From: Dyella terrae | Lineage (GTDB): Bacteria; Pseudomonadota; Gammaproteobacteria; Xanthomonadales; Rhodanobacteraceae | Direction of reading: 5' to 3' | Assembly (NCBI RefSeq): GCF_022394535.1 | Contig: NZ_CP089414.1 | Coordinates: 682,001 to 746,000 of the forward strand | DNA: 64,000 nt | Part shown: positions 39,441-59,328 of the stretch, piece by piece | Layout of the letters: each line of letters opens with the position of its first letter | Position numbering within the stretch: position 1 is the stretch's first letter | The notes under the pieces: model-generated | Databases searched by the model: none | The model's input: only the letters and a program-made list of their open reading frames with translations | What the model was told of the DNA's origin: nothing | Position numbers and translations under genes: made by a program

Positions 39441-40592
39441 ATGAGTCGCGTCGCATCCCTGGAAGCTTTTGCGGACCGCGACCCAACCAATCCCGATCTT
39501 CTTTGCGATCTGCTCGACAGCCTGGTGCTGGAGGGGCAGGTTCAGCGCGCTCGCGAGCGGCTGGAGCGGGCTCCGCAGGCGCTGCGTGCCATGCCGGGCG
39601 TGGTGTTTCGCGATGCACGGTTGGCGCTGGTCGAGGGTGATCTGCCCAAAGTCATTGCGCTGCTGAACCCGCTGGTTTCAGCGCTGCAGCCGGCACCGGC
39701 CGGGTTGTGCCATGACTTGGCCTATGCGCAGTTCACGCTGGGTGAGCCCGATGAGGCGTTGCGCACGTTGAGCAGGGCGTCGGCCGTCGAAGGTGATGAC
39801 GTCATTTCCATTGCACTGTTGACCGCGCGCATCTGGCATCGCCAGCAACGCATTCGCGAGGCGCTTGCCTTGTTGGATGGTTTGCATGACCCGTCGCGAC
39901 AGGCCGAGATCGACGGTTTGCGTGCACTGTTGCTGCTGGACCATGGCCAGGTATCCGATGCAGCGCGTGAGGCATCCCGCGCGTTGTCGCTGGATCCAGC
40001 GCAGTTCGAAGCCGGGCTGGTGAGCGGTTCGTTGGCATTGTCGGCGCGGCACGAGGATGCGGTTTCGATCTTTCAGCGACTGGTCGCCATGCGGCCGAAT
40101 GTCGGACGGGCTTATCTTGGCCTGGGCGAAGGGCTGATGATGTCCGGCGATATCGTGGCGGCCACGGCCGTGCTCGATCGCGCTGTGACGTACATGCCCG
40201 ATCACATCGGTACGTGGCATGCGCTGGCGTGGTGCCAATTGCTGCAGGGCAAGCTGGACGATGCGCAGCGGAGCTTTGATCAGGCGTTTGCGCTGGATCG
40301 TACGTTTGGCGAAACACACGGTGGTCGAGCCCTGATCCACGCGCTTCGCGGCGAGCGCGAAGCGGCCAGCGAATCGATCAAGCGTGCGCTACGGCTCGAT
40401 CCCCATGGGCGCAATGCGCGCTACGCGCAGAGCGTGCTTCTGCTGGATGAGGGCCGGGAGGCGGAGGCGCAGTCGATCATCCAGGATCTGGTGGCATCGC
40501 CCCAGGCGGGGCGTCCGCTGGTTTCGCCGGATTTCGTCAATACGCTGCGCGACCTGCTGCGTCCGAAGCAGGGCGGCAGCCGTGGACACTGA
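39441..40592 (+). CDS. Tetratricopeptide repeat protein heading the flagellar-type operon
   Basis: A 383-residue soluble protein made of about nine TPR units, e.g. AGLCHDLAYAQFTLGEPDEA, LVSGSLALSARHEDAVSIFQ, GRAYLGLGEGLMMSGDIVAA and TWHALAWCQLLQGKLDDAQR. There is no signal peptide and no membrane helix, so it is probably cytoplasmic. TPR scaffolds in secretion operons often act as chaperones or assembly platforms; that role is inference here. It overlaps fliQ by 11 bases, so it is translationally tied to the export genes and is a true member of the operon. It is not a standard flagellar gene. Confidence 0.8.
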   Translation: MSRVASLEAFADRDPTNPDLLCDLLDSLVLEGQVQRARERLERAPQALRAMPGVVFRDARLALVEGDLPKVIALLNPLVSALQPAPAGLCHDLAYAQFTLGEPDEALRTLSRASAVEGDDVISIALLTARIWHRQQRIREALALLDGLHDPSRQAEIDGLRALLLLDHGQVSDAAREASRALSLDPAQFEAGLVSGSLALSARHEDAVSIFQRLVAMRPNVGRAYLGLGEGLMMSGDIVAATAVLDRAVTYMPDHIGTWHALAWCQLLQGKLDDAQRSFDQAFALDRTFGETHGGRALIHALRGEREAASESIKRALRLDPHGRNARYAQSVLLLDEGREAEAQSIIQDLVASPQAGRPLVSPDFVNTLRDLLRPKQGGSRGH

Positions 40593-40845
40593 TGTCGCCA
40601 TGCATTTGCTCGCACAAACACTGCTGACGGCGGCGAAGGTGAGTGCGCCCATTCTTGTCGCCACGTTGCTGGTGGGCGTCGTCATCTCCATCGTGCAGGT
40701 GGTGACGCAGATTCAGGAAATGACGCTGACCTTCATCCCGAAGCTCGTGGTGGTGGTGGTGATGTTCGTGATCACGGGCGCCTGGATGATGGCGGTGGTG
40801 GTGGAGTTCACGCGGCATTTGTTTGGCCTGGTCGCGGGAATGTAA
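40582..40845 (+). CDS. fliQ: Flagellar export gate protein FliQ
   Basis: An 87-residue inner-membrane subunit of the FliPQR export gate, with two helices (APILVATLLVGVVISIVQVV and the second half FIPKLVVVVVMFVITGAWMM) and the conserved VTQIQEMTLTFIPK between them. The GTG at 40582 gives the standard length and N-terminus; an ATG at 40600 would be 6 residues shorter. The GTG lies inside the end of the TPR gene. In most genomes fliQ follows fliP directly; here the P-Q junction is the break point of the cluster, with fliP at the far end. Confidence 0.93.
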   Translation: MDTDVAMHLLAQTLLTAAKVSAPILVATLLVGVVISIVQVVTQIQEMTLTFIPKLVVVVVMFVITGAWMMAVVVEFTRHLFGLVAGM

Positions 40846-40850
40846 GCGCA

Positions 40851-41615
40851 GTGAAGATGGATACGGATCTTGTTGTTTTTCTGCTGGCTATGGCGCGCTT
40901 TTCGCCCTTGCTGATGGTGCCCGCGCTGGGCCCGCTGGCGTGGGTGCCGGGGTATGTGCGCGTGATCATGCTGACGGCGTTGAGCGTGATTGCGCTCGGT
41001 TCGGCGGACATGCACGCCATCCAGGCGCATGTCACGGAGTCGCCCTGGCTGTTCGGGCTCGCCATGGCGGGCGAAAGCCTGGTCGGGCTTACCTTTGCGC
41101 TGGCGACGGTGCTGCCTATGGCTGCCTTGGGCTTTGCAGCCCGCATGGTGGACATGCAGTCGGGCGTGGCGGCGGCCAGCGTGCTCAACCCCTCCACCCG
41201 CACAACGGAATCACTGTTTGGCACGGTGATTCAGTGGAGCGGCATGGTGGTGTTTTTTGCGCTCGGCCTGCACGTGGTGCTGTTGCGCGGGCTGGTGTCG
41301 TCGATGCAGCTGGTGCCCATCGGCAGCGGCAGCGTGGTGGTTTCTCCGGGAACGTTCCTCGGCCTGCTGTCGACGCAGTTCCTGCTTGGCTTGATGGTGG
41401 TGCTGCCGGTGATCCTGGGTCTGTTTGCCATCGATCTGGGTACGGCGTACGCAAGTCGCTCCATGCCGCAGGCCAACATCTATTTCGTGGCGCTTCCGTT
41501 GAAGCTGCTGGCCGGCTTTACGCTGCTGGCGGCAACGTTGAGTTTTGCGCCGCCGCTGATCGAACGGTTGTTCCGCAACGCCTTTGCTGCGTTGCCGATG
41601 ATGGGAGGCCACTGA
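40851..41615 (+). CDS. fliR: Flagellar export gate protein FliR
   Basis: A 254-residue inner-membrane gate component. It shows the N-terminal FLLAMARFSPLLMVPALG, several hydrophobic helices, the family motif GFAARMVDMQSGVAAASVLNP and the C-terminal PQANIYFVALPLKLLAGFTLL. Length matches FliR (about 260). Start is GTG 40851 or ATG 40857. It lies 5 bases after fliQ and 1 base before flhB. Confidence 0.93.
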   Translation: MKMDTDLVVFLLAMARFSPLLMVPALGPLAWVPGYVRVIMLTALSVIALGSADMHAIQAHVTESPWLFGLAMAGESLVGLTFALATVLPMAALGFAARMVDMQSGVAAASVLNPSTRTTESLFGTVIQWSGMVVFFALGLHVVLLRGLVSSMQLVPIGSGSVVVSPGTFLGLLSTQFLLGLMVVLPVILGLFAIDLGTAYASRSMPQANIYFVALPLKLLAGFTLLAATLSFAPPLIERLFRNAFAALPMMGGH

Positions 41616-41616
41616 G

Positions 41617-42690
41617 GTGGCCGAGAACGATCAGAACAAGACCGAGCAACCGACGCCGTTCCGTCTTGAGGAGGCGCGGAAGAAGGGGCAGGTACCACGT
41701 AGCCCGGAGATGACTGGCCTGGTGGTGACCTTGGTGTTCAGCGTAACGCTGTGCATCACCGCCTACACCTTGGCGCATGCCTGGGGCCGCTCGTTCGAGC
41801 GCATGATGTTGATGGCGGGCAATGCACCGGCGCCTTCAGTCGGCCTTATGCGCTGGATTGGCGCCACTTTTCACCCGGTATGGCAGGCGATGGTGCCGCT
41901 GGTGATCGCATTGGTGATCGCGGCCGTGGTGGCCAACCTCGTGCAGACCGGGCCGGTGTTCAGCACCGAGCCGCTCAAGCCTGACTTCTCCCGCCTGAAT
42001 CCGGCGCAGGGCTTCAAGCGGATCTTCTCGATGCGCCTGCTGTGGGATCTTTTCAAGCTGACCTTCAAGGTTTCCTTGCTCGGCGGCCTGGCCTGGCTGT
42101 TGGCCGGCAAGCTGCAGCACCAGGTGCTGGCGACCGCCAATGCGGCACCCAGGGCGGCGGGCGTGCTGCTGCAATCGGTGTATGTGCGGGTCACGGTCTG
42201 GACGTTGGCCGCGCTGGCGTTTGTGGCGCTGTTGGATCTGTTGTTCTCGCGCCGCGAGTACCTGCGCAAGTTGCGCATGAGCCACAACGACATCAAAGAC
42301 GAAGTAAAACGGCGCGAAGGCGACCCGGACATCCGCCAGAAGCGCAAGCGCTTGATGGTGGAGCTGCTCAAGCAGTCGCGATCCATCCGCCGTGTGCCGG
42401 AGGCGGACGTGGTGCTTACCAACCCCACGCATCTTGCGGTGGCGTTGCGTTATCGGCCGCGCACCATGCGTTCGCCGGTGGTACTCGCCAAAGGCACTGA
42501 TGCCGTGGCTGCTGCCATGCGCAGCAAGGCCGCCGTGTCGGGCGTGCCTTGCCTGCGCTCGCCGGCACTGGCCCGTGCGCTGTTCCGCGAATGTGGCGTG
42601 GATCGGACGGTTCCCGATCATCTCTATAGCCAGCTGGCCCCGGTGTATCGCTGGCTCATGCGTCGGCCCGGCAACAGGATTTTCTCGTGA
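41617..42690 (+). CDS. flhB: Flagellar export switch protein FlhB
   Basis: A 357-residue export component with four membrane helices and a cytoplasmic autocleaving domain that switches substrate class from rod/hook to later substrates. The start is EQPTPFRLEEARKKGQVPRS, typical of the family. The cleavage motif NPTH is intact at N269-P270-T271-H272 within VVLTNPTHLAVALRY. An intact switch in a cluster without filament genes is notable. The GTG start has GGGAGG about 10 bases upstream; the stop overlaps flhA (GTGA). Confidence 0.95.
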   Translation: MAENDQNKTEQPTPFRLEEARKKGQVPRSPEMTGLVVTLVFSVTLCITAYTLAHAWGRSFERMMLMAGNAPAPSVGLMRWIGATFHPVWQAMVPLVIALVIAAVVANLVQTGPVFSTEPLKPDFSRLNPAQGFKRIFSMRLLWDLFKLTFKVSLLGGLAWLLAGKLQHQVLATANAAPRAAGVLLQSVYVRVTVWTLAALAFVALLDLLFSRREYLRKLRMSHNDIKDEVKRREGDPDIRQKRKRLMVELLKQSRSIRRVPEADVVLTNPTHLAVALRYRPRTMRSPVVLAKGTDAVAAAMRSKAAVSGVPCLRSPALARALFRECGVDRTVPDHLYSQLAPVYRWLMRRPGNRIFS

Positions 42691-44747
42691 ACACGCTCTT
42701 CGGTCAGATATGGAGCGGCAAGCGCGACATGGCGCTGGTGTTGGGCATGGTCGGCATCCTGATCATCCTGTTCACGCCCATTCCGCCGGGGTTGCTCGAC
42801 TTTCTGCTGGTGCTCAACTTTACGACGGCACTGTTGGTGCTGCTCATTACGTTCTTCACCGAGACGCCGCTGAGCTTCTCCACGTTTCCGTCACTGCTGC
42901 TGATCACCACGCTGTTCCGCCTTGCGCTGAACATTTCGGCGACGCGCCTGATTCTGGACAAGGGCAATGCGGGGCGGGTGATCAACGCGATTGGCTCGTA
43001 CGTGGTGGGCGGCAACTACGTGATCGGCCTGGTGGTGTTCCTGATTCTGGTGGTAGTGCAGTACGTGGTGGTCACCAGTGGCGCGCAGCGCGTAGCGGAA
43101 GTGGCGGCGCGCTTCACCCTGGACAGCATGCCCGGCAAGCAGATGAGCATCGACGCCGACATGAACATGGGGCTGATCGATCAACATGAGGCCAAGCGTC
43201 GCCGTGCCCTGGTTGAGCGCGAGGCTAGCTTTTACGGCGCAATGGACGGCGCGACCAAGTTTGTGAAGGGCGATGCCATCGCCGGCATCATGATCATCCT
43301 GATCGACATCATCGGTGGGCTTGCCGTGGGTATGGCCCAGCGCGGCTTGCCTTGGTCGGATGCAGCCCACCAATACACCTTGCTCACGGTTGGCGACGGC
43401 ATCGTGACGCAGATTCCCTCGCTGGTGATTGCGGTAGCGACGGGCATCATCATCACGCGCGCGGCCTCCGATGCGCAGCTGGGTACCGAGGTGACGCGGC
43501 AGGTGCTGTCCAACTCGCGCACGCTGCTGATCGTGGCGTTGGCGTTGCTGGGCGTGCTGATGCTGCCCGGTCTGCCGGCATGGCCGGTGTTGGTGGTGTT
43601 GGCAGGCGTTTGCGCGTTGATTTTCTTCTCCGTGCGCAGCAAGCAGTCGAAGGGACAAGATGAGCAAGAGCAGGCGATGCCCGAAACACCGGCTGCTCGC
43701 TCCGAGGAAGACATTTACAAGTTGATGGCGGTCGAGCCGATCGAGATCCATCTCGGTACGGCGATCGTGGCCACGTACAAAGCCAAGAATCTGGATCTGG
43801 GCGAACGTATCGCCACGTATCGCAAGCAGTACGCGCTGGAGGCAGGTTTCATCCTGCCGAAGGTGAAGTTGATCCAGGAGGCGCCGCTGCCCGAACGGGG
43901 CTACGAGCTGCACGTGCAAGGTTCACGGGCGGGAAAGGGCGAGTTGCATTTCGATGCGTTGCTAGCCATTGATCCGGGTGGCAAGCGTCCGCGCCTGGAA
44001 GGCAAGGAAACCAAAGACCCTGCCTATGGCCTGCCTGCGCTATGGATATCCCCGGACCAGCGGCAGTTCGCTCGCGGGGCGGGTTACACCTTGGTCGATC
44101 CGGAAACGGTGTTGATCACCCATCTGGGCGAAGTAGTGAAGCGGTATGCGCCCGAGCTGCTGACCCGCGCGGAAACCGAACGGCTGGTCACGCGCGTGCG
44201 TGAACAGCAGGCATCGCTGGTGGATGAACTGATTCCTGGTGTCATGTCTTACACAGACGTCCAAAAGGTGCTCCAACAGTTGCTGCGAGAGCAGGTCAGC
44301 ATCCGCAATATCGAGGCCATCCTCGAAGTGCTGGTCGACGCGGGCAAGACGCTCAAGCAGACCGACGAGTTGGTGGAGCGCGTGCGCGAGCGGCTTGGGC
44401 CGGTGATCTGCCAGCGCGTAAGCAATGCGCAGGGCGAATTGCACGTACTGACGCTGGCGACAGAGCTGGAGCGCAATATCGTTACGGCGCTGCGCCAACG
44501 CGAGGGCGCTGGCCTGTTGCTCAGCGATCCTGGGCAGTTGGAGGCGCTGCTTGGCGGCTTGGCCAAACAATCCGAGGCGATGATGGTTCGTAGCCATCTG
44601 CCTGTGCTGCTTTGCCCCAGTGCGCTGCGCCGGCATCTTCGCGCGCTCGTCCAGCGCAGCCTTCCCCATATCACCGTGCTCGGCATCAACGAGGTGCCGG
44701 CCTCCCTGGCAGTGAAGTCATTTGGCGTCGTCACGGCGACGCAGTGA
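42687..44747 (+). CDS. flhA: Flagellar export gate protein FlhA
   Basis: A 686-residue inner-membrane component of the nonameric export ring, near full family length. It has eight expected helices with LLITTLFRLALNISATRLIL, the FHIPEP signature zone (RFTLDSMPGKQMSIDADMN), and the cytoplasmic domain that docks chaperone-substrate complexes. The C-terminal domain is complete (VTLxxE-type helices and a final HITVLGINEVP). The GTG at 42687 overlaps the flhB stop. No flhF or flhG follows; instead rod genes begin. Confidence 0.95.
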   Translation: MNTLFGQIWSGKRDMALVLGMVGILIILFTPIPPGLLDFLLVLNFTTALLVLLITFFTETPLSFSTFPSLLLITTLFRLALNISATRLILDKGNAGRVINAIGSYVVGGNYVIGLVVFLILVVVQYVVVTSGAQRVAEVAARFTLDSMPGKQMSIDADMNMGLIDQHEAKRRRALVEREASFYGAMDGATKFVKGDAIAGIMIILIDIIGGLAVGMAQRGLPWSDAAHQYTLLTVGDGIVTQIPSLVIAVATGIIITRAASDAQLGTEVTRQVLSNSRTLLIVALALLGVLMLPGLPAWPVLVVLAGVCALIFFSVRSKQSKGQDEQEQAMPETPAARSEEDIYKLMAVEPIEIHLGTAIVATYKAKNLDLGERIATYRKQYALEAGFILPKVKLIQEAPLPERGYELHVQGSRAGKGELHFDALLAIDPGGKRPRLEGKETKDPAYGLPALWISPDQRQFARGAGYTLVDPETVLITHLGEVVKRYAPELLTRAETERLVTRVREQQASLVDELIPGVMSYTDVQKVLQQLLREQVSIRNIEAILEVLVDAGKTLKQTDELVERVRERLGPVICQRVSNAQGELHVLTLATELERNIVTALRQREGAGLLLSDPGQLEALLGGLAKQSEAMMVRSHLPVLLCPSALRRHLRALVQRSLPHITVLGINEVPASLAVKSFGVVTATQ

Positions 44748-44754: not shown

Positions 44755-45432
44755 ATGAGTAACGTCATTTCCAGTATTGCCAGTTACCTCAGCCGGGACG
44801 TCGAGTCGCTCGATGTCATCGGCCAGAACGTCGCGAACATGCGGACGGCCGGCTATCGCACCGAGCGTCTCAAGGGTGACTTCCGTACTGCGACCGGCGC
44901 CGATGACCGCGCCCTCAGCATGCTGGATGGCAACCTCGACAAGACCGGCGCGCCGCTGGATCTCGCCATTCAGGGTGCGGGCTTCTTCGTGGTGGACCAG
45001 AACGGCCAGGAGCGCCTGACGCGCAATGGGCAGTTTCATATCGACGCCGATCACCAGCTGGTGGATGCCATGGGCCGCCCCGTGTTGGGCGAAGCTGGGC
45101 CGATCACGCTCGACAGTGCCTCCGTACACATTGGTGTCGATGGCGCCATCAAGGATGGCGACAAAGAGATCGACACGCTGAGGATCGTCGGCATCGCCAA
45201 CGCCGATGGCTTGCGCGAGATCGGCGATGGCCTCTATGCGTACGACGGTGCGACCGGCGACTGGAACGGCACCTTGCACCAGGGTGCACTGGAGCGCTCC
45301 AACGTCGACCCCGGCACCGAAATGGTGCGCCTGATGGAAGTGACTCGGCACGCGCAATCCGTGCAACGCGCCATTCAGGCCTATGACGCCGCCATGCAGG
45401 GCGGTATTTCCCACCTTGGCGACAACGCCTGA
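44755..45432 (+). CDS. flgF: Flagellar proximal rod protein FlgF
   Basis: A 225-residue periplasmic rod subunit exported by the type III gate, so without signal peptide. The N-terminal rod motif is ESLDVIGQNVANMRTAGYRT, a variant of the usual NNxANxxTxGYK. The core has LDLAIQGAGFFVVDQNGQERLTRNGQF, and the C-terminal helix is SNVDPGTEMVRLMEVTRHAQ. It is slightly shorter than typical FlgF (about 250). GAGGAG lies 4 bases before the ATG. Confidence 0.9.
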   Translation: MSNVISSIASYLSRDVESLDVIGQNVANMRTAGYRTERLKGDFRTATGADDRALSMLDGNLDKTGAPLDLAIQGAGFFVVDQNGQERLTRNGQFHIDADHQLVDAMGRPVLGEAGPITLDSASVHIGVDGAIKDGDKEIDTLRIVGIANADGLREIGDGLYAYDGATGDWNGTLHQGALERSNVDPGTEMVRLMEVTRHAQSVQRAIQAYDAAMQGGISHLGDNA

Positions 45433-45442: not shown

Positions 45443-46210
45443 ATGATCGACGCGCTTTATATCGCTACCTCCGGCCTGAAAAGCCAGCAGAGCCAGATCG
45501 ATACGCTCTCCAACAATATTTCCAACATGCAGACGCCGGGCTTCAAGGCCAAGCGCGTTGCGTTCGGCGACATCGCGACCATGTCGCCTGCCCAGGTGGC
45601 CGCAGGGCTTTCGCCGGAGAGCGAAGGCGCCGGTTCGGAAATTATTGCCACGACAGCGCTGTTCTCGCAGGGTCAGGTGATGCAGACCAACAACACCTGG
45701 GATCTCGCCATTCAGGGCAGCGGCTTCTTCGAGGTGGTGGACGGTAACGGCAACCATCTGTACACCCGCGCCGGCCAACTTCACGTGGATAGCGAGGGCT
45801 ACCTCTCTACGGTCGATGGCAATCGATTGGCGCAGGAAATCCAGATTCCGCCGGACGCCGCGCAAATTCAGATCAACCAGAGTGGGCAGATCTACGCGAA
45901 CGTCGGCGGCAGTGCCACGCAAACATTGTTGGGCACGATCGAGCTGAGCGTGTTCCCTTCTGCGGACGGGCTGCAATCGGTGGGTGGCAACAATTTTTCA
46001 GCCACGCAGGCCTCGGGTGACCCCAGCGTGGAGAAGGCGAACGAGAACGGCACTGGCAGCATTCTGCAGGGCTCACTGGAGAGCTCGAATGTGGACATGG
46101 TGTCGGAGATGTCTTCGCTGGTGATCGCGCAACGGGCCTATCAGCTCAATGCACGCGTGCTGCAGGCATCTGACCAGATTCTCGACACCATCAATAATCT
46201 CCGGCAGTAA
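45443..46210 (+). CDS. flgG: Flagellar distal rod protein FlgG
   Basis: A 255-residue distal rod subunit of normal length. It begins ALYIATSGLKSQQSQIDTLS and NNISNMQTPGFKAKR, then LAIQGSGFFEVV, LYTRAGQLHVDSEGYL, and ends with SSNVDMVSEMSSLVIAQRAY. GAGGAG precedes the start by about 7 bases. It follows flgF by 10 bases, the usual order. Confidence 0.95.
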   Translation: MIDALYIATSGLKSQQSQIDTLSNNISNMQTPGFKAKRVAFGDIATMSPAQVAAGLSPESEGAGSEIIATTALFSQGQVMQTNNTWDLAIQGSGFFEVVDGNGNHLYTRAGQLHVDSEGYLSTVDGNRLAQEIQIPPDAAQIQINQSGQIYANVGGSATQTLLGTIELSVFPSADGLQSVGGNNFSATQASGDPSVEKANENGTGSILQGSLESSNVDMVSEMSSLVIAQRAYQLNARVLQASDQILDTINNLRQ

Positions 46211-46212: not shown

Positions 46213-46917
46213 ATGCGCCTGCTTCTTTTCGCTCTCGCCATCTTGTTGTTGCCCCTGCGCCTTATGGCCGGGGATGCGCAGCAGACAGTGGTCGCATCCC
46301 GACTGGTCGATGCGGCCCAGATCGTGCTGCGCGAGCGCCTGCCGGGCAACGGCGATGCGACGCTGTCCACCATGGGGGCGCCGGAGGACGTTCGCGTACC
46401 CACCGGTGCGGTGAGCATCAAAGCCCGCGACGTCAGCGGGCGCTGGCCGCGTTCGCGCGTTGGCGTGCCGGTGGATGTGTTGGTCGATGGCAGGGTTGTT
46501 CGGTCTGCCACAGTGTGGTTTGCCGTGAGCGTTCGCGGCAAAGCGCTCACTTACAGCGAGGACGCTGCCATGGGTGTGCCGGCGCAGTCCCTGCGTACGC
46601 AGGCCGCCGACATTGACATGGCGGCGCTCCAGGAAACGCCAGTCGAAAGCCCCGAAGCACTAGATGGCCTGCGCCTGCGCAGGCCGGTGCAGGCGGGCGC
46701 GCCCGTTCTGTCGAGTGATTTTGAAAAGATTCCAGACGTCGATCGACGGGAGAAGGTGCGTGTGCTCGCGAGCTACGGCGCCATTCATCTGACGACGCAC
46801 GGCGTCGCCAACAGCACGGGGAATGCGGGGGACGTGGTTCCCGTGCTGGTTGATGGTGCCGATGTGCCGGTGCGTGCTCGGGTTACCGATAAGGGAGTGG
46901 TCGAAGTTGTCCAGTAA
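46213..46917 (+). CDS. flgA: P-ring assembly chaperone FlgA
   Basis: A 234-residue periplasmic protein with a signal peptide (MRLLLFALAILLLPLRLMAG). The C-terminal SAF-like domain (RLRRPVQAGAPVLSSDFEKI, then VRVLASYGAIHLTTHGVANS and VVPVLVDGADVPVRARVTDK) is typical of FlgA, which prevents premature FlgI assembly. Its presence with flgI and flgH argues for a complete periplasmic and outer-membrane bushing. Confidence 0.88.
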   Translation: MRLLLFALAILLLPLRLMAGDAQQTVVASRLVDAAQIVLRERLPGNGDATLSTMGAPEDVRVPTGAVSIKARDVSGRWPRSRVGVPVDVLVDGRVVRSATVWFAVSVRGKALTYSEDAAMGVPAQSLRTQAADIDMAALQETPVESPEALDGLRLRRPVQAGAPVLSSDFEKIPDVDRREKVRVLASYGAIHLTTHGVANSTGNAGDVVPVLVDGADVPVRARVTDKGVVEVVQ

Positions 46918-48606: not shown

Positions 48607-48614
48607 GGCATGCC

Positions 48615-49698: not shown

Positions 49699-49737
49699 TC
49701 GTACGTCGTGGACGGCAGTTCTATGCCCGGAGCAGGT

Positions 49738-51162: not shown

Positions 51163-51608
51163 ATGCAGCGGGCATGCGCAAGGCGGCGGTTTATCTGGCG
51201 TCGCTGCATCCAACGGATCGACGCTGGTTGTTGGCGCAGTTGCCCGTGGCGTCGGCGCAACAGTTGTGGGCGCTTGCCGAAGAAGCAGAGCCTCTGGTTC
51301 GCGCGATGCCTGAATCGCTGCACGCGCTGTTGGCGGAGCAGGATCAGCACGATGCTATTGAAGTGCCCACGCCAGACCTTTTGATCGGAGCAATCAATAC
51401 GCTCGATGAACCATGGGCGGCGCGGATGATCGCCGGTGCTGCGCGGGATCACGCGGAAATCTATCTCGCCGCCTGTTTCCGGCAGCGCGCCATCGGCATA
51501 CGCAGCGAACTGATGACGTTGCCGCAGAAGTTTCCCGCGGCACTGGCGCAGTGTCTTGCTGAGGAGCTGTCCTTGATGGCCAATCAGGCTGAGGCGGCAT
51601 CCGCATGA
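51159..51608 (+). CDS. Severely reduced FliG-like protein
   Basis: A 149-residue cytoplasmic protein at the FliG position between fliF and fliH. Residues 5-45 (MRKAAVYLASLHPTDRRWLL, AQLPVASAQQLWALAEEAE) resemble the N-terminal FliF-binding domain of FliG. FliG is normally about 330 residues with an EHPQ-containing middle domain and a charged C-terminal torque helix; neither is present, and no downstream frame supplies them. The ATG overlaps the fliF stop and the stop overlaps fliH, so it is not an obvious truncation by frameshift. It could be a minimal C-ring adaptor similar in role to the small proteins of virulence secretion systems. A FliG origin is inferred from position and weak motif. 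Confidence 0.6.
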   Translation: MNAAGMRKAAVYLASLHPTDRRWLLAQLPVASAQQLWALAEEAEPLVRAMPESLHALLAEQDQHDAIEVPTPDLLIGAINTLDEPWAARMIAGAARDHAEIYLAACFRQRAIGIRSELMTLPQKFPAALAQCLAEELSLMANQAEAASA

Positions 51609-52240: not shown

Positions 52241-53565
52241 TGGGTGCCGCGGTGGCGAAGCTCGAACGTATCCTTGCCAGTGCTACCTGGGTGCGTCGCG
52301 TTGGACGCTTGGTGGCGTTCAATGGCCTGGTGATCGAAGCCGAGGGTCCGGATGCGGTGATCGGCGAGTTGTGCCATGTCTTCGGCGATGCCAATGAAGC
52401 GCCGGTGCTTGCCGAAGTGGTGGGCTTTCGCGAAGGCCGCGTACTGTTAATGCCGTTCGGTCACCTTCGTGGCAAGCCGGTGGGAGCCGTCGTGGAGGCG
52501 CTCGGTCGTCGACTGCGTGTCCCTGTAGGGCGCGACATGATCGGCAGAGTGTCGGACGCCTTCGGCAATCCGCTCGATGATAAGCCGCCGTTCCGCGCCG
52601 AGACGGACCGGGACCTGTATGGAAGTGCCATCAATCCCTTGGCGCGTGCACCACTGAGCGAGGGCCTCGAAACTGGCGTTCGTGCCATCGACACCTTGGT
52701 GCCCTTGGCCAAGGGGCAGCGCGTTGGCATCTTCGCGGGCAGTGGCGTGGGAAAGAGCACCTTGCTTGGCATGCTCGCCGGTCATGTCCGTGCAGACGTC
52801 ATCGTGGTTGGGTTGATCGGGGAGCGTGGTCGCGAAGTCGCGGACTTTCTCCACGATGCGCTGAGCAAGGAGGGGCGGGCACGCTCCGTATTGATCGTGG
52901 CGACCGCTGACCAGCCGGCGCTGCAGCGTACTCATGCCGTCCATGCTGCCCATGCCGTGGCCGAGTATTTCCGGGATCTCGGCAAGGACGTCCTGCTGGT
53001 GATCGATTCCATCACGCGATTCGCTATGGCTCAGCGCGAAGTGGGGCTGGCCACGGGGGAGCCGCCGACATCTCGCGGCTACCCGCCGTCGGTGTTCAAT
53101 CTGTTGCCACAGATCCTGGAGCGTGGAGGAAGCCTGAAGGGCTCCGGGACGATCACCGCCATCTACAGCGTGCTGGTGGAAGGCGACGACATGAACGAGC
53201 CCGTCGCTGATCACATGCGCGCGATTCTCGATGGCCATATCGCGCTCTCGCGTGATCTGGCATCGCGTGGGCAGCTTCCAGCGATCGATCTTCTCTCCAG
53301 CATCAGTCGCCTGCAGTCCAAGGTATGTCAGGCCGATGAGCTTGAGTTGATGCAACGCGTTCGTTCCATGATCGCAGTTCATGAAGCCTCGCGTGACCTG
53401 GTGGACATGGGGGCATATCAAGCGGGCGCGAACCCGTCGCTGGACGAGGCCCTGCGACGCCATCCGGATATGGTCGAGTTCATTCGCCAGATGCCCGGTG
53501 AACGGACCACGAAGGAGCGCAGCATGCATATGCTTCGCGAGCTGATGACAAAGGGCGCGGAATGA
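52240..53565 (+). CDS. fliI: Flagellum-specific ATPase FliI
   Basis: A 441-residue export ATPase homologous to F1 beta. Walker A is GSGVGKST at residues 167-174 (K172), followed by VIVVGLIGERGREVADFL, the Walker B region DVLLVIDSITRFAMAQREVG, and EPPTSRGYPPSVFNLLPQIL with SYSVLVEGDDMNEP-type sequence after it. All catalytic motifs are intact, so ATP-driven export is likely. The start overlaps the fliH stop (TGATG). Confidence 0.95.
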   Translation: MGAAVAKLERILASATWVRRVGRLVAFNGLVIEAEGPDAVIGELCHVFGDANEAPVLAEVVGFREGRVLLMPFGHLRGKPVGAVVEALGRRLRVPVGRDMIGRVSDAFGNPLDDKPPFRAETDRDLYGSAINPLARAPLSEGLETGVRAIDTLVPLAKGQRVGIFAGSGVGKSTLLGMLAGHVRADVIVVGLIGERGREVADFLHDALSKEGRARSVLIVATADQPALQRTHAVHAAHAVAEYFRDLGKDVLLVIDSITRFAMAQREVGLATGEPPTSRGYPPSVFNLLPQILERGGSLKGSGTITAIYSVLVEGDDMNEPVADHMRAILDGHIALSRDLASRGQLPAIDLLSSISRLQSKVCQADELELMQRVRSMIAVHEASRDLVDMGAYQAGANPSLDEALRRHPDMVEFIRQMPGERTTKERSMHMLRELMTKGAE

Positions 53566-54011
53566 ACGCACGTAAGGTTCGTTCCTACGAGGTCATGCGT
53601 CGCCTGGCTCACGTGCGCGAGTCACAGGCCTCGCTTGAACTGGCGGCGGCTATACGCGTCGAGGATGCGGCGGCAAAGGATGCAGCCGAAGCCGAGGCGC
53701 TTCGTGTTGCCGCAGCGGATGCGCGCTATCGCTGCCTTCATGTGCCCGGTGGCATGCCTATGGGCGAATACGCTTTGCTGACGACCCTGTGTGATTCGCT
53801 GCATGAGCGCGAAGCTGCAGCCAATGGCGCGTTGCAGGAGGCGGCGGAGCGCCGTCTGGCGAAAGCCGAGCACGCTGCGATGGCGGGTCGGTTCGTCGAT
53901 CGCGTTGAGGATGAGTTGACCGTAAGCCGGCAGGCCTTCGCGTCGGTGCGTGAGGGGCGGTCGCTCGCGGATTCGCTCGACCTTTGGGTCAACGCCAGGG
54001 AGGGCGACTGA
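53562..54011 (+). CDS. fliJ: FliJ-like coiled-coil export chaperone
   Basis: A 149-residue, Ala/Arg/Glu-rich antiparallel coiled coil (RRLAHVRESQASLELAAAIR; VAAADARYRCLHVPGG in the turn; long second helix). Size, position after fliI and architecture fit FliJ, the central stalk of the ATPase that also escorts chaperones. Sequence identity of FliJ is low in general, so position carries much of the weight. Confidence 0.78.
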   Translation: MNARKVRSYEVMRRLAHVRESQASLELAAAIRVEDAAAKDAAEAEALRVAAADARYRCLHVPGGMPMGEYALLTTLCDSLHEREAAANGALQEAAERRLAKAEHAAMAGRFVDRVEDELTVSRQAFASVREGRSLADSLDLWVNAREGD

Positions 54012-54817
54012 TGGATCTTCTGCCGGTGCTCGGTGCCGCGGGTAGTTCGAACTTCAATAGCGCGCAGGGATCGTCTGCGGATTTCGCCGATGTGTTGAAG
54101 AAAGAGCCTGAACAAAAGCCGTCATCCAGAACACAGGATGAGTCGGCGGTGGCCATCGCGCGGCGTGAAGAGGCAGAGGGCGAGGCTTCGCGGCAAGGTC
54201 TGGCATCGCCAGACGAATCGAGCGAGGTACGCGCGGCGCTCGCTGTTTCATCCAGTGTGTTGTCGGCATCGGATATCGCGACGGTGGAGCAGGTGTTGTC
54301 AATGCGGGTGTTTGGGTTGCACTTGACGGCATCGGGTTATCTGTCTGAGTACGCCTTGTCGACATCGCAAACCACGCCATCGGATGAGCGCGAAACGGTC
54401 GTCAATGACGCGGCGACGAGCCAGGCCGAAATTGCAATAAACGACCCCGAGGAAATGGCGGGACGCCCGCTTGCATCGGTATCCGATGTCGATGAGCGCG
54501 GCCTTTTTGTCGGCCTCGAATCACCCGTGGAGTCATTGCTTGGCACGCCAGACGATGACGCGATGGCCATGCAAGCCATGATGGGCGCAGCAGCATGGAC
54601 CGAAACCCGCTGGCAGGAGCGCTCTGTTCGCCTGTTCCAAAGGGCGGGCGGGAAGCACGTGGCGTGGTTGCGCGATTACACGCTTTCAGAAGACGAAGCC
54701 CGGTACTTGTCCGTTGAGCTCGTTCGGCATTGGCTCAGCCAGGGTATTTCCCTGCAAAGCATCGTTTGGAACGGCCGAGAACTCTGGTCATCCAACAACC
54801 TCAGTCAAGGAGAGTGA
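54011..54817 (+). CDS. Divergent protein at the FliK position
   Basis: A 268-residue protein, start ATG at 54011 overlapping the fliJ stop (TGATG). The first ~180 residues are low-complexity, acidic and Ser-rich (KKEPEQKPSSRTQDES, etc.) and probably unfolded, as the ruler part of FliK would be. The C-terminal 80 residues form a compact domain (RSVRLFQRAGGKHVAWLRDY, TLSEDEARYLSVELVRHWLS, GISLQSIVWNGRELWS). I do not see the conserved FliK substrate-switch domain. It lies between fliJ and flgD, where fliK normally sits, so it may be a divergent hook- or rod-length ruler. Function is inference from position and layout. Confidence 0.6.
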   Translation: MDLLPVLGAAGSSNFNSAQGSSADFADVLKKEPEQKPSSRTQDESAVAIARREEAEGEASRQGLASPDESSEVRAALAVSSSVLSASDIATVEQVLSMRVFGLHLTASGYLSEYALSTSQTTPSDERETVVNDAATSQAEIAINDPEEMAGRPLASVSDVDERGLFVGLESPVESLLGTPDDDAMAMQAMMGAAAWTETRWQERSVRLFQRAGGKHVAWLRDYTLSEDEARYLSVELVRHWLSQGISLQSIVWNGRELWSSNNLSQGE

Positions 54818-54818: not shown

Positions 54819-55238
54819 ATGTCCGTCGAAGCCATCGGCAGTTCGTTGAGTACGTCCGATCCATCCGCTTTGTCGAGCTCGGGCATCAACGAGCAGGATT
54901 TCATCAAGCTGTTCGTCAGCGAGCTGCAGTTCCAGGATCCCATGCAGCCGCTGGACAACAGCCAGTTCCTCACGCAGCTCGCGCAGTTCGTGAGCATTGA
55001 ACAGCAAAGCGAGGAGGTCAGCGGTATCAATAACCTTCTGACGCTCGACTCGTCCGATCAATCGCTAGGCTTGCTCTCGCACACCGTGCAGGTCGCCAAC
55101 GCCGATGGCTCGACGACCACGGGCAAGGTGACCGGCATTCAATACACCAGCAATGGTGTGCAGATGACTATCTCCACAGGCACGAGCAACGTGGTGACGA
55201 ATGTCGGCCTGTCCCAGATCCAGCTCGTCACTCCCTGA
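54819..55238 (+). CDS. flgD: Short hook-cap protein FlgD
   Basis: A 139-residue hook scaffolding protein with the diagnostic motif FIKLFVSELQFQDPMQPLDN, SQFLTQLAQFVSIEQQSEEV, then LLSHTVQVANADGSTTTGKV. FlgD is usually 220 residues or more with FnIII/tudor-like C-terminal domains; here only one short beta domain follows. The core export and polymerisation region is complete. AAGGAGAG lies 6 bases before the ATG. Confidence 0.9.
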   Translation: MSVEAIGSSLSTSDPSALSSSGINEQDFIKLFVSELQFQDPMQPLDNSQFLTQLAQFVSIEQQSEEVSGINNLLTLDSSDQSLGLLSHTVQVANADGSTTTGKVTGIQYTSNGVQMTISTGTSNVVTNVGLSQIQLVTP

Positions 55239-55248: not shown

Positions 55249-56409
55249 ATGCCAAGCATCATGCAGGCTCTGTACAACAGTGTTTCCGGGCTTTTCAGCT
55301 TCTCCCAAACGCTGAATACGATCAGTAATAACGTGAGCAACATGAATACGCCCGGCTTTCGCGGGAGTGATTCGTTTCTTGAGAACGTGCTGGACGACGA
55401 TGGCTCCAAGGTGGCGGGCTCCGGCCTGAATCTGAGCGAAGGTCAGATCGAGCAGACCAGCACGGCCACCGATGTCGCCATTGATGGTAAGGGTTTCTTC
55501 ATTCTGCAAGACCCACAGGGTGTCACCTACTACACGCGCTCCGGCCAGTTCCAGTTCAATGACAAGGGTCAGTTGGTTGATTCGGTCAATCAGTACGTGG
55601 TTCAGGGCTACGCCACGAACGGCAGCTATGGCCCGATCGATATCTCGTCATTGCAGAAGCTTCCGGCGCAAGCGACGACTTCGATATCCATGGCGGGAAA
55701 TATCGTGCCGAGCACCCCGGATACCGTGAACAACGTGACCGTTTATGACGCGCAGGGCAATTCGCATGTGCTCAGCGTCAGCCTGACGAACAGTACAACG
55801 ACGACAGGCAGCTGGGCCGTCAATATTGCCGACAGTAGCGGCAAGTCGCTAGGCAGCGGCGAAATCCGCTTCAGTACGGATGGAACATTGCAGGCCGGTT
55901 ACACGACGGTAACCGCCACCGGCAACTGGGGACCTGGTCCTCAGGCACTGACTTTCAACTTCGGCACGGCCGGAGGCCTGTCAGGTACTACGACCTTCTC
56001 CGGTGGAACAGCAACGCTAGCTGCGCAGGTGAAGGACGGCCATGGCGTGGTGGGTCTTAGTTCGGAGAGCTTTGACTCCACCGGGACGTTGCAGCTCAGT
56101 TATGCGGATGGCGAAACCAAGCAAGGCCCGCAGCTCGCGCTAGCGACATTTCAGGACGAATCGAGCCTGACGATGATTCAGGGCAATTTGTACCTGCAGC
56201 CACAGACACAGACGGCTCAGATTGGCAAGCCGAGCTCCACTGTTTTCGGAAAGATCGACGGCAGCAGCCTGGAGATGTCGAATGTGGACCTTACCCAGGA
56301 ACTGGCTGACATGATCGTCATTCAGCGCGGTTATCAAGCGAGCTCCCGTGTCATGACTGTGTCCAGCGACATGCTCCAGCAGCTCTACGATTCCACGCGA
56401 GGTGGATGA
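55249..56409 (+). CDS. flgE: Flagellar hook protein FlgE
   Basis: A 386-residue hook subunit of normal size. N-terminal LYNSVSGLFSFSQTLNTISN, NVSNMNTPGFRG; core DVAIDGKGFFILQDPQGVTY, YTRSGQFQFNDKGQLVD, GYATNG; C-terminal SSLEMSNVDLTQELADMIVI, QRGYQASSRVM. Complete D0 helices at both ends suggest it can polymerise. Hook-filament junction genes (flgK, flgL) do not follow, so the structure would end at the hook. Confidence 0.94.
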   Translation: MPSIMQALYNSVSGLFSFSQTLNTISNNVSNMNTPGFRGSDSFLENVLDDDGSKVAGSGLNLSEGQIEQTSTATDVAIDGKGFFILQDPQGVTYYTRSGQFQFNDKGQLVDSVNQYVVQGYATNGSYGPIDISSLQKLPAQATTSISMAGNIVPSTPDTVNNVTVYDAQGNSHVLSVSLTNSTTTTGSWAVNIADSSGKSLGSGEIRFSTDGTLQAGYTTVTATGNWGPGPQALTFNFGTAGGLSGTTTFSGGTATLAAQVKDGHGVVGLSSESFDSTGTLQLSYADGETKQGPQLALATFQDESSLTMIQGNLYLQPQTQTAQIGKPSSTVFGKIDGSSLEMSNVDLTQELADMIVIQRGYQASSRVMTVSSDMLQQLYDSTRGG

Positions 56410-57158
56410 TGACCGATGCCTTGCGTTTTGGTTGGCTGGGTGAATCGCGGCGCATACCGCTGCACGCACTGCTGGCTCGGGAAGTCTCCGAATGGTCCAG
56501 GGACTGGTGGCTGGAGCATTCCTCCGCCGCGATCGATGTGTACCCGCTCGATGAATGGCTGCCTGTCGATAGCGAGGTTTCCACTTGGCGGATGGGCGAG
56601 GGCTGGTTCCAGCTTCACGCGCATCAAGGTGAGGCCGCATTGGGGGCCTATCTTGCGGCCACCGGCAGCACCGATGCCTCCGCTCTTGCTGAGCGAATAG
56701 GCGCGCGCGCATTGGCTGACCTGATCGCAAGGGTGGCTAAGCGTGCGGCGGTGCGCGCCCATGCAGCCACGGCGATTGCCGCTCCGGCAGCGGCTTGTCA
56801 TCGGCCAGAACTCGGCGCCTATATGGCCACACTTTCGCTGGGCAGTCACACCCTTGCCATGGCCATGGACCGCACGGTGGTGGACCTGCTGGTTCCTCCT
56901 AAAAAGCACGAGAAGACGACGCTTGTTGGGCGTGCGCAGGCGATAGGCGGTGCGAGCGTTGCTTTGGAAGTTTGCATCGCGCTCGGCACCTCTTCGCTCT
57001 CGCAACTGGACAACCTGCAGGTCGGTGAGGTGCTCGTCGGAGACGCCCTGTTGACTGCGCCTGTTGAGCTGCGCGCGGCTGGATCGGGTGCAGTGGCTCT
57101 CGCAAAACTCGGTGTCGGGCAATCGTCCCGCATTGTCACGCTTACTCATTCCATCTGA
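56406..57158 (+). CDS. Short FliM/HrcQ-like C-ring protein with SpoA domain
   Basis: A 250-residue cytoplasmic C-ring protein at the fliM position. The C-terminal ~80 residues are a SpoA domain (VALEVCIALGTSSLSQLDNL, QVGEVLVGDALLTAPVELRA). The N-terminus (MMTDALRFGWLGESRRIPLH) lacks the LSQxEIDAL CheY-binding motif of FliM, and the middle CheC-like domain with its GGxG element is not evident. FliM is normally about 330 residues; the layout is closer to HrcQ/YscQ of non-flagellar secretion systems. It starts by overlapping the flgE stop (ATGATG). A signal-responsive rotary switch is unlikely. Confidence 0.7.
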   Translation: MMTDALRFGWLGESRRIPLHALLAREVSEWSRDWWLEHSSAAIDVYPLDEWLPVDSEVSTWRMGEGWFQLHAHQGEAALGAYLAATGSTDASALAERIGARALADLIARVAKRAAVRAHAATAIAAPAAACHRPELGAYMATLSLGSHTLAMAMDRTVVDLLVPPKKHEKTTLVGRAQAIGGASVALEVCIALGTSSLSQLDNLQVGEVLVGDALLTAPVELRAAGSGAVALAKLGVGQSSRIVTLTHSI

Positions 57159-57173: not shown

Positions 57174-57476
57174 ATGAACGAAGATACTGTTGCCGCCGAG
57201 GCCATCACCACGAAAACGGAGGCGCCCGAAGTTCACCCGCTTATCAAGCGCAATCTCTCGCTGCTTGGCCACGTCAATGTCGCGCTGGACGTGGTGGTCG
57301 GGCAGGCGAACGTCTCGGTGGATCGACTGTTCTCCCTGGCGAAGGGCGATGTGGTAACGCTCGATGCGGACATGGATGCGCCGGTTGCGATTCGCCTGGA
57401 TGGAAAGATTGTCGCGATGGGCTACCTAGTTGCCGTGGGCGACCAGTTTGGCGTCAAGATCTCGGAGATCCTCTGA
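57174..57476 (+). CDS. fliN: Flagellar C-ring protein FliN
   Basis: A 100-residue SpoA-domain protein with NLSLLGHVNVALDVVVGQAN, SVDRLFSLAKGDVVTLDADM and VAIRLDGKIVAMGYLVAVGD, FGVKISEI at the end, the standard FliN core. It forms the base of the C-ring and docks FliH-FliI. Length is slightly below E. coli FliN. It follows the short FliM gene by 15 bases. Confidence 0.93.
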   Translation: MNEDTVAAEAITTKTEAPEVHPLIKRNLSLLGHVNVALDVVVGQANVSVDRLFSLAKGDVVTLDADMDAPVAIRLDGKIVAMGYLVAVGDQFGVKISEIL

Positions 57477-57477
57477 C

Positions 57478-57879
57478 ATGCTCGGATGCGGAAGCATCGC
57501 GCTGGCGATCTTCCAGGCGGCGCCAGCCTCAGGCGGAATTCCGTTTCGCACGGAATCCGCCGTTTCGATGGATCGTCTGGTGCTCGCCATGGTGGTGCTT
57601 GTGCTGGTCTTGGTCTGTCTGGTGGCCGCCCTTTACCTTGCTCGCAAGAAGGGCTGGTTGAACCGCATAGCGCCACATGCCTCAACGGGGCAAGGGCAGG
57701 GTGGTCGGTCGGAGTTGTCTCTGCGGACATCCCGGCGCATCTCAGCCTTTACATCCGTTCACGTGCTTGCACACGGTGATCGCGAATTCGTGGTCGTAGA
57801 ATCCGTTCGTGGTGCCACGGCGCAGGTTCAGATGTTGCCGGTGCCATTCGCCGGCGAAGCTCAGGAGCGTTCGCCGTGA
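57478..57879 (+). CDS. fliO: Flagellar protein FliO
   Basis: A 133-residue protein with one membrane helix (LVLAMVVLVLVLVCLVAALY) and a basic cytoplasmic segment ending in VHVLAHGDREFVVVESVRGA, similar to the FliO domain that assists assembly of the FliP ring. The start ATG directly follows the fliN stop. Position between fliN and fliP is standard. Confidence 0.85.
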   Translation: MLGCGSIALAIFQAAPASGGIPFRTESAVSMDRLVLAMVVLVLVLVCLVAALYLARKKGWLNRIAPHASTGQGQGGRSELSLRTSRRISAFTSVHVLAHGDREFVVVESVRGATAQVQMLPVPFAGEAQERSP

Positions 57880-58613
57880 AGAGTCGCGCTTGGGCTCTAT
57901 TGGCTTGTGGCTTTGCTTGCCTGTTCGCCACCGGCATGCTTCACAGCGAGCCGCTGCCGGGATTCTTCAGTCGCCTGGCCAGCGATGACTACTCGCCCGT
58001 ACTTCGCTCTTTCATCATGCTGTCGGCGCTGGCATTTCTCCCGCTGATGGTCATTGCACTGACAAGCTTCACGCGAATCATCGTGGTGCTGTCCCTGCTC
58101 AGAAACGCGCTCGGACTGCAGCAGACGCCACCCAATAGCGTGCTGCTCACGCTGGCGATCTTCCTGACGTTGTTCTCGATGAATCCCGTCTTCGAGGCGG
58201 TCAGGCAATCCGCGGTTGAGCCTTACAGCAGACACGAAATTTCCGCTGACGTGGCTATCGCCAAAGGGTTCGAGCCGTTCAAGCATTTCATGGTGCGTCA
58301 GACCCGCGAGGAGGATCTGCGTGCCGTGGTGCAGATGGCCAAGGTGCCGATGCCCAAGTCAATCGACGAGGTTGGGGCCCTCCAGCTTATTCCCGCTTTC
58401 ATGCTGAGCGAGTTGCGCACGGCCTTCCAGATCGGCTTCGTCATCTTCCTTCCGTTCTTGTTGATCGATCTGGTCGTTGCGGCGATCTTGATGGCGCTTG
58501 GCATGATCATGCTTCCACCCACAACGATAAGCCTGCCTCTTAAGATCCTGCTTTTCCTTCTGGTCAATGGCTGGGCACTTCTTGCCCAGGCGCTGCTTAG
58601 TAGCTACCACTGA
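57876..58613 (+). CDS. fliP: Flagellar export gate protein FliP
   Basis: A 245-residue inner-membrane gate subunit with a cleavable signal peptide. Family motifs are SFTRIIVVLSLLRNALGLQQ, TPPNSVLLTLAIFLTLFSMN, PVFEAVRQSAVEPY, IPAFMLSELRTAFQIGFVIF and PFLLIDLVVAAILMALGMIM, closing with LPLKILLFLLVNGWALLAQA. Complete. GTG start overlaps the fliO stop. It is 17 kb away from its usual neighbour fliQ, since the cluster is broken between P and Q. Confidence 0.95.
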   Translation: MKSRAWALLACGFACLFATGMLHSEPLPGFFSRLASDDYSPVLRSFIMLSALAFLPLMVIALTSFTRIIVVLSLLRNALGLQQTPPNSVLLTLAIFLTLFSMNPVFEAVRQSAVEPYSRHEISADVAIAKGFEPFKHFMVRQTREEDLRAVVQMAKVPMPKSIDEVGALQLIPAFMLSELRTAFQIGFVIFLPFLLIDLVVAAILMALGMIMLPPTTISLPLKILLFLLVNGWALLAQALLSSYH

Positions 58614-59328
58614 CTGGCGTCGAGTATTGGACGCACACGAACACCAGCTTTGGGAGCGCTGGAGGGGTGGCCAGGACCACGTGGCCAGAGGCGAGCTGGT
58701 GGCCAGACACTCGGACTGGGCGCGCCAGATCGCCCGGTCCATCTATCGTCGCGTTTACGGTCTCTCCGGTATGTGGGAGGACTGCGCGCAGAACGCACTG
58801 GTGGGCTTGCTGGAGTCCATCGACCGGTTCGACCCCGCGCGGGGCATTGATTTCGAGCTCTACGCGCGTTATCGCGTGCGCGGTTGTGTTTTCAACGGGT
58901 TGAGGCTGTTGCGGCAAGGCCCGGAACGAATTGTCGGAAGAGAGGCGCGGAACGAGGTCGTCCGGGAGCGGGTGGAGTCGATTCAGGATGATGTGCCGGT
59001 TGACCCTCTGGAGGCTTTCGTTGCGACCGCTGTCGGGCTTGGATTGGGCGTTTTACTTGAAGCCCAGTCGCTACCCTTGGCATCCCTTCAACCGGATGCC
59101 TATGCGGTGACTGAGGAGAGGCAGCGAGACGCGTTGCTGGCTGATTGCGTTGCTGCGCTTCCAGAACGAGAGCGCCTGATACTCGTTTTGCACTACTACC
59201 ATCACCTGCCATTTATCCAACTGGCTGAGCGCATGGAGGTCACCAAAGGCCGCGTGTCCCAGTTGCACAAACAGGCGATTGGGCGGCTAAGGCGCATGTT
59301 GCAAGACCACTGGACGGAATCAGTCTGA
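58567..59328 (+). CDS. Sigma-28 (FliA-like) RNA polymerase sigma factor
   Basis: A sigma factor of the FliA/RpoF type, up to 253 residues. Region 2 is MWEDCAQNALVGLLESIDRF, DPARGIDFELYARYRVRGCV, FNGLR; region 4 is LPERERLILVLHYYHHLPFI, QLAERMEVTKGRVSQLHKQA, IGRLRRML. The start is unclear: the ATG at 58567 overlaps fliP by 47 bases and lacks a ribosome site, while a TTG at 58627 would leave only about six residues before LWERW. It closes the flagellar-type run. In motile bacteria this sigma drives filament and chemotaxis genes, none of which are in view, nor is an anti-sigma FlgM. Its targets may be effectors of this system elsewhere. Confidence 0.85.
   Translation: MAGHFLPRRCLVATTDWRRVLDAHEHQLWERWRGGQDHVARGELVARHSDWARQIARSIYRRVYGLSGMWEDCAQNALVGLLESIDRFDPARGIDFELYARYRVRGCVFNGLRLLRQGPERIVGREARNEVVRERVESIQDDVPVDPLEAFVATAVGLGLGVLLEAQSLPLASLQPDAYAVTEERQRDALLADCVAALPERERLILVLHYYHHLPFIQLAERMEVTKGRVSQLHKQAIGRLRRMLQDHWTESV

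Follow-up and report, generated by a model that had tools for sequence, protein, structure and literature searches.

Our comparative analysis of a 64,000-nucleotide stretch of the Dyella terrae genome (hereafter the window; 682001-746000 of a single 5.36-Mb contig) links a flagellar gene cluster at 39441-59328, whose products reach only as far as the hook, to a gene for a giant RHS/YD-repeat protein that ends 11 kb before the cluster's first gene, which encodes a TPR protein. We propose, with a probability of roughly 0.7, that the cluster encodes a non-rotating, filament-less hook-basal body that acts as a type III exporter, with the giant signal-less RHS/YD protein as its main late substrate in flagellin's place. 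With somewhat less assurance, we also think it probable that this is a new class of protein secretion pathway, spread over gamma- and beta-proteobacteria and partly plasmid-borne, in which a giant polymorphic-toxin-like protein of the RHS/YD kind, of up to 12948 aa, has replaced the propeller of the flagellum and leaves as a sigma-28-controlled late substrate through a stationary rod and hook. Since the flagellum stops at the hook, the sigma factor has no flagellin of its own and the co-occurring giant gene carries a flagellin-type promoter, the giant as late substrate is the economical interpretation. The co-occurrence of giant RHS/YD proteins with the cluster is new in this analysis. The functional unit probably reaches beyond 39441-59328 to take in the giant gene (14069-28249) as well as, at 38585-39431, a small gene and a promoter:

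13981..14006, plus strand: promoter CTAAAC-N16-GGAT, with sigma-28 geometry, 88 nt upstream of the giant gene's ATG
14069..28249, plus strand: giant RHS/YD-repeat protein, 4726 aa, likely late substrate (Pfam RHS_repeat E 4e-160, He_PIG, LysM; N-terminal family A8; co-occurrence with the cluster)
38585..38977, minus strand: conserved 130-aa gene, divergent from the cluster in Dyella (tblastn matches in 19 of 27 cluster regions, our own included, some weak)
39406..39431, minus strand: second sigma-28-geometry element, pointing to the 130-aa gene, a candidate target whose ATG lies 429 nt further on

Coupling of the giant protein to the cluster

Carriers of the cluster were sought with a FliM-like profile, which matched 23 of 233 family genomes (among them G064, which lacks the cluster), 28 of 398 order genomes (22 at full length), 5 of 369 class genomes and 42 of 349 phylum genomes, the last two counts including our own genome and the last including many matches to the C-domain only. 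Gene order was read in 25 genomes, namely the window, five relatives, eight family members and eleven further ones (for G102 the reading starts at flgB and for G469 at flgE, while contig or stretch ends truncate G768 and G724), and nine genomes with a full-length FliM match alone (G086, G087, G089, G091, G099, G190, G200, G201 and G450) bring the carriers to 34. A profile of the giants' first 80 residues, A8, with sequences drawn from six carriers of a first set and five of a second, was then run on whole genomes. In the first, family set it matched 22 of 233 genomes, or 21 after G180 was dropped, which are 21 of the 22 carriers and none of the 211 others; the sole family carrier without the giant N-terminus, G200, has an assembly that is 91% complete. 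The second set, 80 genomes chosen by handle, gave 14 raw matches, two of them partial, with the N-terminus in 12 of 12 carriers and 0 of 68 others. Overall, 33 of 34 carriers and none of 279 other genomes have it (Fisher p 5e-29 in the family set and 2e-14 in the second, uncorrected for the kinship of the genomes), and the coupling holds when the genomes behind the profile are set aside (15 of 16 and 7 of 7 carriers). The three partial A8 matches in cluster-less genomes lack the shared N-terminus. One cluster-less family member, G180 (L273), encodes an RHS-type protein with a Sec-type signal peptide start, judged by eye, and no GNGLGL N-terminus.

The flanks of the cluster repeatedly hold one giant open reading frame (ORF), and many of these encode homologous RHS/YD-repeat proteins with the common N-terminus MVAV..GNGLGL; lysine and arginine are absent from the first 12 residues in all 12 of 12 giants. 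With partial matches excluded, we count 56 such N-termini in 33 genomes, 39 of them in open frames of more than 2000 aa (range 2392-7853, median 4824). In 27 of the 34 carriers, a giant shares a contig with fliM and is no more than 45 kb away from it. Five giant genes are distributed around the chromosome of G460, a 6.24-Mb single-contig genome with the full cluster; one of them is next to the cluster. Three plasmids with the cluster each carry a giant as well, of 4897, at least 5198 and 12948 aa. The last, on Undibacterium pUYM01 (record 129783-168629), is annotated as a tandem-95 repeat protein, adjoins the plasmid's cluster, shares both N-terminus and promoter element with the other giants, and is the largest candidate substrate. 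A database query with the N-terminal 90 residues of the window giant returned 155 proteins, the best 120 of which bear varied Pfam accessions, several of them toxin families, and come, among others, from Dyella, Luteibacter, Lysobacter (L. capsici and L. hankyongensis by name), Pseudoxanthomonas, Thermomonas, Rhodanobacter, Frateuria, Herminiimonas, Pseudoalteromonas and one Caulobacter record; a Dyella sp. giant is 99% identical to ours over these 90 residues. The giants' N-terminus on Pseudoalteromonas proteins P0239, P0247 and P0248 belongs to a lineage outside the cluster survey.

The window giant combines RHS repeats, also matched by TIGR01643, with putative Ig and LysM domains and a HEATH metalloprotease-like motif near its C-terminal end; Pfam reported no PAAR domain for it. 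Its repeat core is a trait of RHS/YD polymorphic toxins, as is its variable C-terminus with a displaced cassette, displaced C-terminal cassettes being frequent in such toxins:

35900..37201, plus strand: orphan C-terminal cassette with the FGNALGNAAIAGM junction in common with the giant (31 aligned columns, 68% identical; DNA 62 bp, 84% identical)
37066..37999, plus strand: two small ORFs behind the orphan cassette (possible immunity genes, by position only; no Pfam match)

Between giant and cassette, at 30288-35761, Pfam finds a tyrosine recombinase and a primase of the DnaG type, and an HTH and a GNAT-like ORF are recognized by eye; the region is possibly a mobile element that parted the two.

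A sigma-28-geometry promoter element

Upstream of the first 14 giant copies we find CTAAAC (twice ATAAAC), 16 bases and [GCA]GA[TC], from which the search pattern [CA]TAAAC-N16-[GCA]GA[TC] was written; the spacing is that of sigma-28 promoters, TAAA-N15-GCCGATAA. The element is present in 38 of the 40 giant copies with 200 nt upstream, against 2.2% of random 200-mers from the same loci (n=20000), and its distance to the giant start is 63-100 nt in 36 copies, 117 nt in one and 195 nt in another. Across all scorable copies, some of them near-identical, it occurs in 50 of 56, and in 36 of the 42 that were not used for the pattern; three further copies were unscorable. The window holds two of the own genome's four matches to the narrower CTAAAC-N16-SGAT, one before the giant and one before the divergent 130-aa gene, whose product matched no Pfam, NCBIfam or PADLOC family. 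The element is present in six of the nine regions where that gene is divergent (G013, G015 and G248 being without it). Nine regions have, close to the cluster or to a giant, a gene for a TPR protein of about 190 aa, which in G335 and G501 also has the element.

Composition of the cluster and its reduced switch

The genes of the cluster, all on the plus strand, are in order:

39441..40592: TPR protein, possible chaperone or scaffold (Pfam TPR; homologue at the cluster in many relatives)
40600..40845: fliQ (PF01313; ORF open from 40384, ATG at 40600 in keeping with relatives)
40851..41615: fliR (position, conservation)
41617..42690: flhB, with NPTH autocleavage motif (PF01312)
42687..44747: flhA (PF00771; 40% identity to the same genome's canonical FlhA)
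44755..45432: flgF (Pfam)
45443..46210: flgG (Pfam)
46213..46917: flgA, P-ring chaperone (PF13144)
46823..47497: flgH, L ring (PF02107; ORF start given, true start probably later)
47494..48606: flgI, P ring (PF02119)
48603..48983: flgB (PF00460)
48986..49399: flgC (PF06429)
49396..49698: fliE (PF02049)
49708..51162: fliF, MS ring (PF01514/PF08345)
51159..51608: reduced fliG, 149 aa, FliG_N-like half and one ARM domain
51605..52240: fliH (PF02108)
52240..53565: fliI ATPase (PF00006, PF18269)
53562..54011: fliJ-like (position, conservation)
53984..54817: fliK-like (position, conservation; no FliK match in Pfam)
54819..55238: flgD, hook cap (PF03963)
55249..56409: flgE, hook (PF07559, PF22692)
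56406..57158: fliM, 250 aa, without N-terminal CheY-binding motif (PF01052 below cut-off; Foldseek E 6.3e-6 to FliM)
57174..57476: fliN (PF01052)
57430..57879: fliO-like, from ORF start (position, conservation)
57876..58613: fliP (PF00813)
58567..59328: FliA/WhiG-type sigma factor (PF04542/PF04545; TIGR02479 E 3e-29)

Pfam scans of 30 ORFs called these parts, FliM as a FliM/N C-domain protein and the sigma factor as a sigma-70 region 2/4 protein; the FliR, FliJ-like, FliK-like, FliO-like and FliG-like assignments rest on position and conservation in relatives. A flagellum-type export gate, ATPase, MS, P and L rings, rod and hook are thus all encoded. A preliminary description of the window had already read the run as gate, ATPase complex, rings, rod, hook and hook cap, opened by the TPR gene and closed by the sigma gene, and both Pfam and five relatives confirm it; the identical order in these relatives argues that the arrangement is not due to chance. 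Equally borne out is its remark that filament, junction, FlgJ, stator, FliL, FlhF/G and Che genes are missing from the run, none having been found by Pfam among the 30 ORFs. Secretin, needle and translocon proteins were likewise not detected among the scanned cluster ORFs, the rest of the genome lying outside that scan. The sigma factor is FliA/WhiG-like, its best NCBIfam match, TIGR02479, falling under the curated cut-off. FlhB keeps its NPTH motif in 24 of 27 regions (one has NPVH, in one the gene is out of reach and one partial gene is without the motif), which makes a substrate switch plausible.

Behind the sigma gene, our strain encodes a large hybrid sensor kinase at 60012-63554 of the window, with no tblastn match in the fetched stretches of five relatives. 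Further downstream, at 65970-75686 beyond the window's end, lies a two-partner-secretion protein of 3239 aa that contains 28 YDG stretches and is unrelated to the giant family.

The cluster's FliG has 149 aa against 337 in the canonical protein, the single Pfam match to FliG_C in the genome is the canonical gene, and in a structure model the one ARM domain resembles FliG_M and FliG_C about equally, within one Z unit. The FliF C-terminal tail, REEALQRLRQW, may be the receiver for this FliG. The FliM model matches FliM chains by Foldseek, at a TM of only 0.38 and with a model pLDDT of 72. Among the rows inspected, its start is FGWLGESRR-like in Dyella and different elsewhere, never LSQEEIDALL-like; the canonical FliM of the same genome begins with MSDLLSQEEIDALL, which we take to be the CheY-binding motif. 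Judged from these starts, the missing portion of the cluster FliM is the N-terminal CheY motif. The earlier view that both switch proteins are cut down stands for FliG, with the ARM domain itself ambiguous, and has to be softened for FliM, which has lost the CheY motif alone.

A canonical flagellum in the same genome and the spread of the cluster

A second, complete and canonical flagellar cluster lies at about 4.72-4.77 Mb, 4 Mb from the window. Pfam identifies in it full FliG and FliM, FliC, FliD, FliS, FlgJ, FlgK, MotA and FlgH/I, and, together with position, FlgL; FliE-FliR, FlhB, FlhF/G, FliA and the Che genes are named by position and similarity only. Its FlhA, at 4752716, is the protein that shares 40% identity with that of the window. 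Here flgH and flgI form one 621-aa frame with both Pfam domains (4725986-4727851), a fusion or a read error. The preliminary description's picture of a filament-less apparatus thus applies to the cluster, within which no filament or stator genes were found, but not to the genome, where a search for fliC, flgKL, fliD, motA and a second fliG/fliM recovered a full flagellum.

In the clusters that were read, the gene order is constant except that a TPR gene has moved, G1142 has a permuted start and fliH is displaced in Undibacterium; in distant members the profiles missed some small genes. The cluster is present in several families of gamma- and beta-proteobacteria and on plasmids of Burkholderia ubonensis (pMSMB2035, conjugative by typing), Undibacterium (pUYM01) and Variovorax sp. 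PDNC026, two of these clusters being read from annotation and the third plasmid scanned with profiles. The gene order, near-fixed in 25 genomes and on plasmids, is not restricted to our organism, although the preliminary description thought it distinctive-looking. In an FlhA tree (unrooted, with long branches and without injectisome sequences), 24 second-type and 17 canonical sequences are split by a branch with support 100/100. Searches with the genome's own canonical proteins found no filament or junction genes inside 19 second-type clusters. Flagellin and FliG_C are both present in 26 of the 34 carriers and both without a match in the other eight, two of which are single-contig genomes (G460 and G476). 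Conservation across families and these eight carriers together give good support to an exporter that needs no filament. Of the earlier proposal of a hook-ended secretion or adhesion machine derived from a flagellum, the secretion half is thereby strengthened, and gains a probable dedicated giant substrate; for adhesion we found nothing in favour.

A model for export and its rivals

We hypothesize that the operon supplies gate, rings, rod and hook together with a FliA-type sigma factor of its own, and that FlhB, through its NPTH site, and the FliK-like protein would flip export specificity once the hook is finished. From the sigma-28-geometry promoters, the sigma factor would then transcribe the giant gene and possibly some small accessory genes. 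Small TPR proteins or the 130-aa protein could keep the giant export-competent and deliver its conserved N-terminus to FlhA. The giant would pass unfolded through rod and hook and fold outside as a YD shell that bears a variable toxin-like C-terminal domain, presumably directed against neighbouring microbes.

Several observations weigh against this model. The element is missing from some readable giants (two copies each in G724 and G460, the latter out of five, and one each in G476 and G450), and our own 5.36-Mb genome has four matches to CTAAAC-N16-SGAT against seven for the reversed control, so the own-genome count is not above chance; where a genome has a canonical FliA, that factor could read the element instead. 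Seventeen of the 56 chromosomal N-terminal matches sit in frames below 2000 aa, some at contig ends and some possibly broken, and seven of the 34 carriers have no giant on the cluster's contig, six of them with copies on other contigs and G200 with none. The nine carriers added by FliM match have no other basis, the FliG profile finds nothing in three of 27 regions and only fragments in four, and fliF is split into two frames in G476. Finally, 4000-13000 aa is far above the usual size of type III substrates.

The most serious rival, to which we nevertheless assign only a small share of belief, is that the apparatus exports adhesins, hook material or regulators and that the giants are co-regulated surface proteins using another route. 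Passages of two Lysobacter enzymogenes studies fit it, one reporting FlgD secretion (PMC9927559) and one that several genes of the flagellar type III secretion system (FT3SS) affect twitching (PMC7277350), as does the distance that sometimes separates giants from the cluster, exemplified by the five around the G460 chromosome, two of them without the element. The giants lack the N-terminal K/R typical of Sec or Tat, and this, together with the near-perfect phylogenetic coupling and the flagellin-type promoter element, makes export by another route hard to reconcile with the data.

A second or lateral flagellum that rotates because the canonical one lends it filament, junction proteins and stators appears improbable, given that eight of 34 carriers, two of them single-contig, have no detected flagellin or FliG_C to lend, that FliG is 149 rather than 337 aa long and that the CheY motif of FliM is gone. 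We regard a decaying remnant of a second flagellum as slightly less probable still. The absence of filament, junction, stator and chemotaxis genes would suit decay, as would the split fliF of G476 and the Undibacterium plasmid flgI annotated as two frames (L160:25306-26438), and passages of a 2015 Lysobacter comparison deem such genes apparently non-functional (PMC4657364). Against it stand the near-fixed order of the same gene set in gamma- and beta-proteobacteria, the eight carriers that retain the cluster with no other flagellum detected, and the export of foreign flagellin by the L. enzymogenes FT3SS, as described in part of PMC7277350; moreover, the second-type FlhA proteins form one clade, which makes repeated independent decay unlikely. 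An injectisome-like system delivering effectors into eukaryotic cells, for which the homology of export gate and ATPase to type III secretion systems (T3SSs) and the resemblance of TPR proteins to class II chaperones might speak, is very hard to sustain in the presence of L and P rings, rod, hook and FlgD and with secretin, needle and translocon not among the scanned cluster ORFs.

If correct, export of the giants by the hook-basal body would give the reason why non-flagellated and doubly equipped soil bacteria retain a propeller-less flagellum, provide a natural cargo for the Lysobacter FT3SS and a way out of the cell for giant YD proteins that lack a signal, and show a motility organelle made into a dedicated secretion machine with its sigma-28 late-gene logic retained. 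It would also raise a physical puzzle, the passage of a 4000-13000-residue chain through the flagellar channel.

Relation to known systems

The nearest published counterpart is the FT3SS of non-flagellated Lysobacter (L. enzymogenes, L. capsici and L. gummosus). Passages of PMC4657364 describe a flagellar cluster of 22 genes, those for hook and sigma factor among them, in three Lysobacter species, thought non-functional and absent from L. antibioticus, and a separate secretin-less type III gene set in the same genomes. In L. enzymogenes, according to part of PMC7277350, fliC is missing, foreign flagellin is exported unless flhB or fliI is deleted, and of the parts placed in Salmonella FliR alone partly complements. 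The likeness to our cluster lies in the missing fliC and the export of foreign flagellin, and G460, with the full cluster and five giants, belongs to the same taxonomic order as Lysobacter. The difference is that fliG, fliM, fliE and flgB are called lost in L. enzymogenes by BLAST against X. oryzae, the FT3SS being said, in the relevant passages of PMC9927559, to work without a FliG homologue, whereas the window's cluster type has divergent forms of all four; the published list of losses may therefore reflect the sensitivity of BLAST. The Lysobacter FT3SS is probably a member of the window's cluster type. We found no published report linking an FT3SS to giant RHS proteins, in a search that did not extend to a 2020 L. 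enzymogenes FT3SS paper, a possible source on cargo.

With the canonical flagellum, the system shares the export gate, ATPase, MS, P and L rings, rod, hook, hook cap, FliA-type sigma factor and late-promoter logic; unlike it, the window cluster has no filament, junction, stator or chemotaxis genes, a reduced FliG and an FlhA in a separate clade. The needle-less T3SS* of Myxococcus xanthus, linked to predation in passages of PMC10433427, is likewise an incomplete T3SS but lacks outer-membrane components, in contrast to the L and P rings and hook encoded here. Some bacterial teneurin-like proteins are without a signal peptide and without a known delivery machinery according to part of a 2026 paper (PMC13018210). 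Teneurin-like proteins and the RHS/YD polymorphic toxins resemble the giants in YD-repeat shell and variable C-terminus, whereas the giants are set apart from such toxins by the lack of a PAAR domain (by Pfam, for the window giant), by a start without charged, signal-like character, and by a conserved N-terminus of their own that is coupled to an export cluster.

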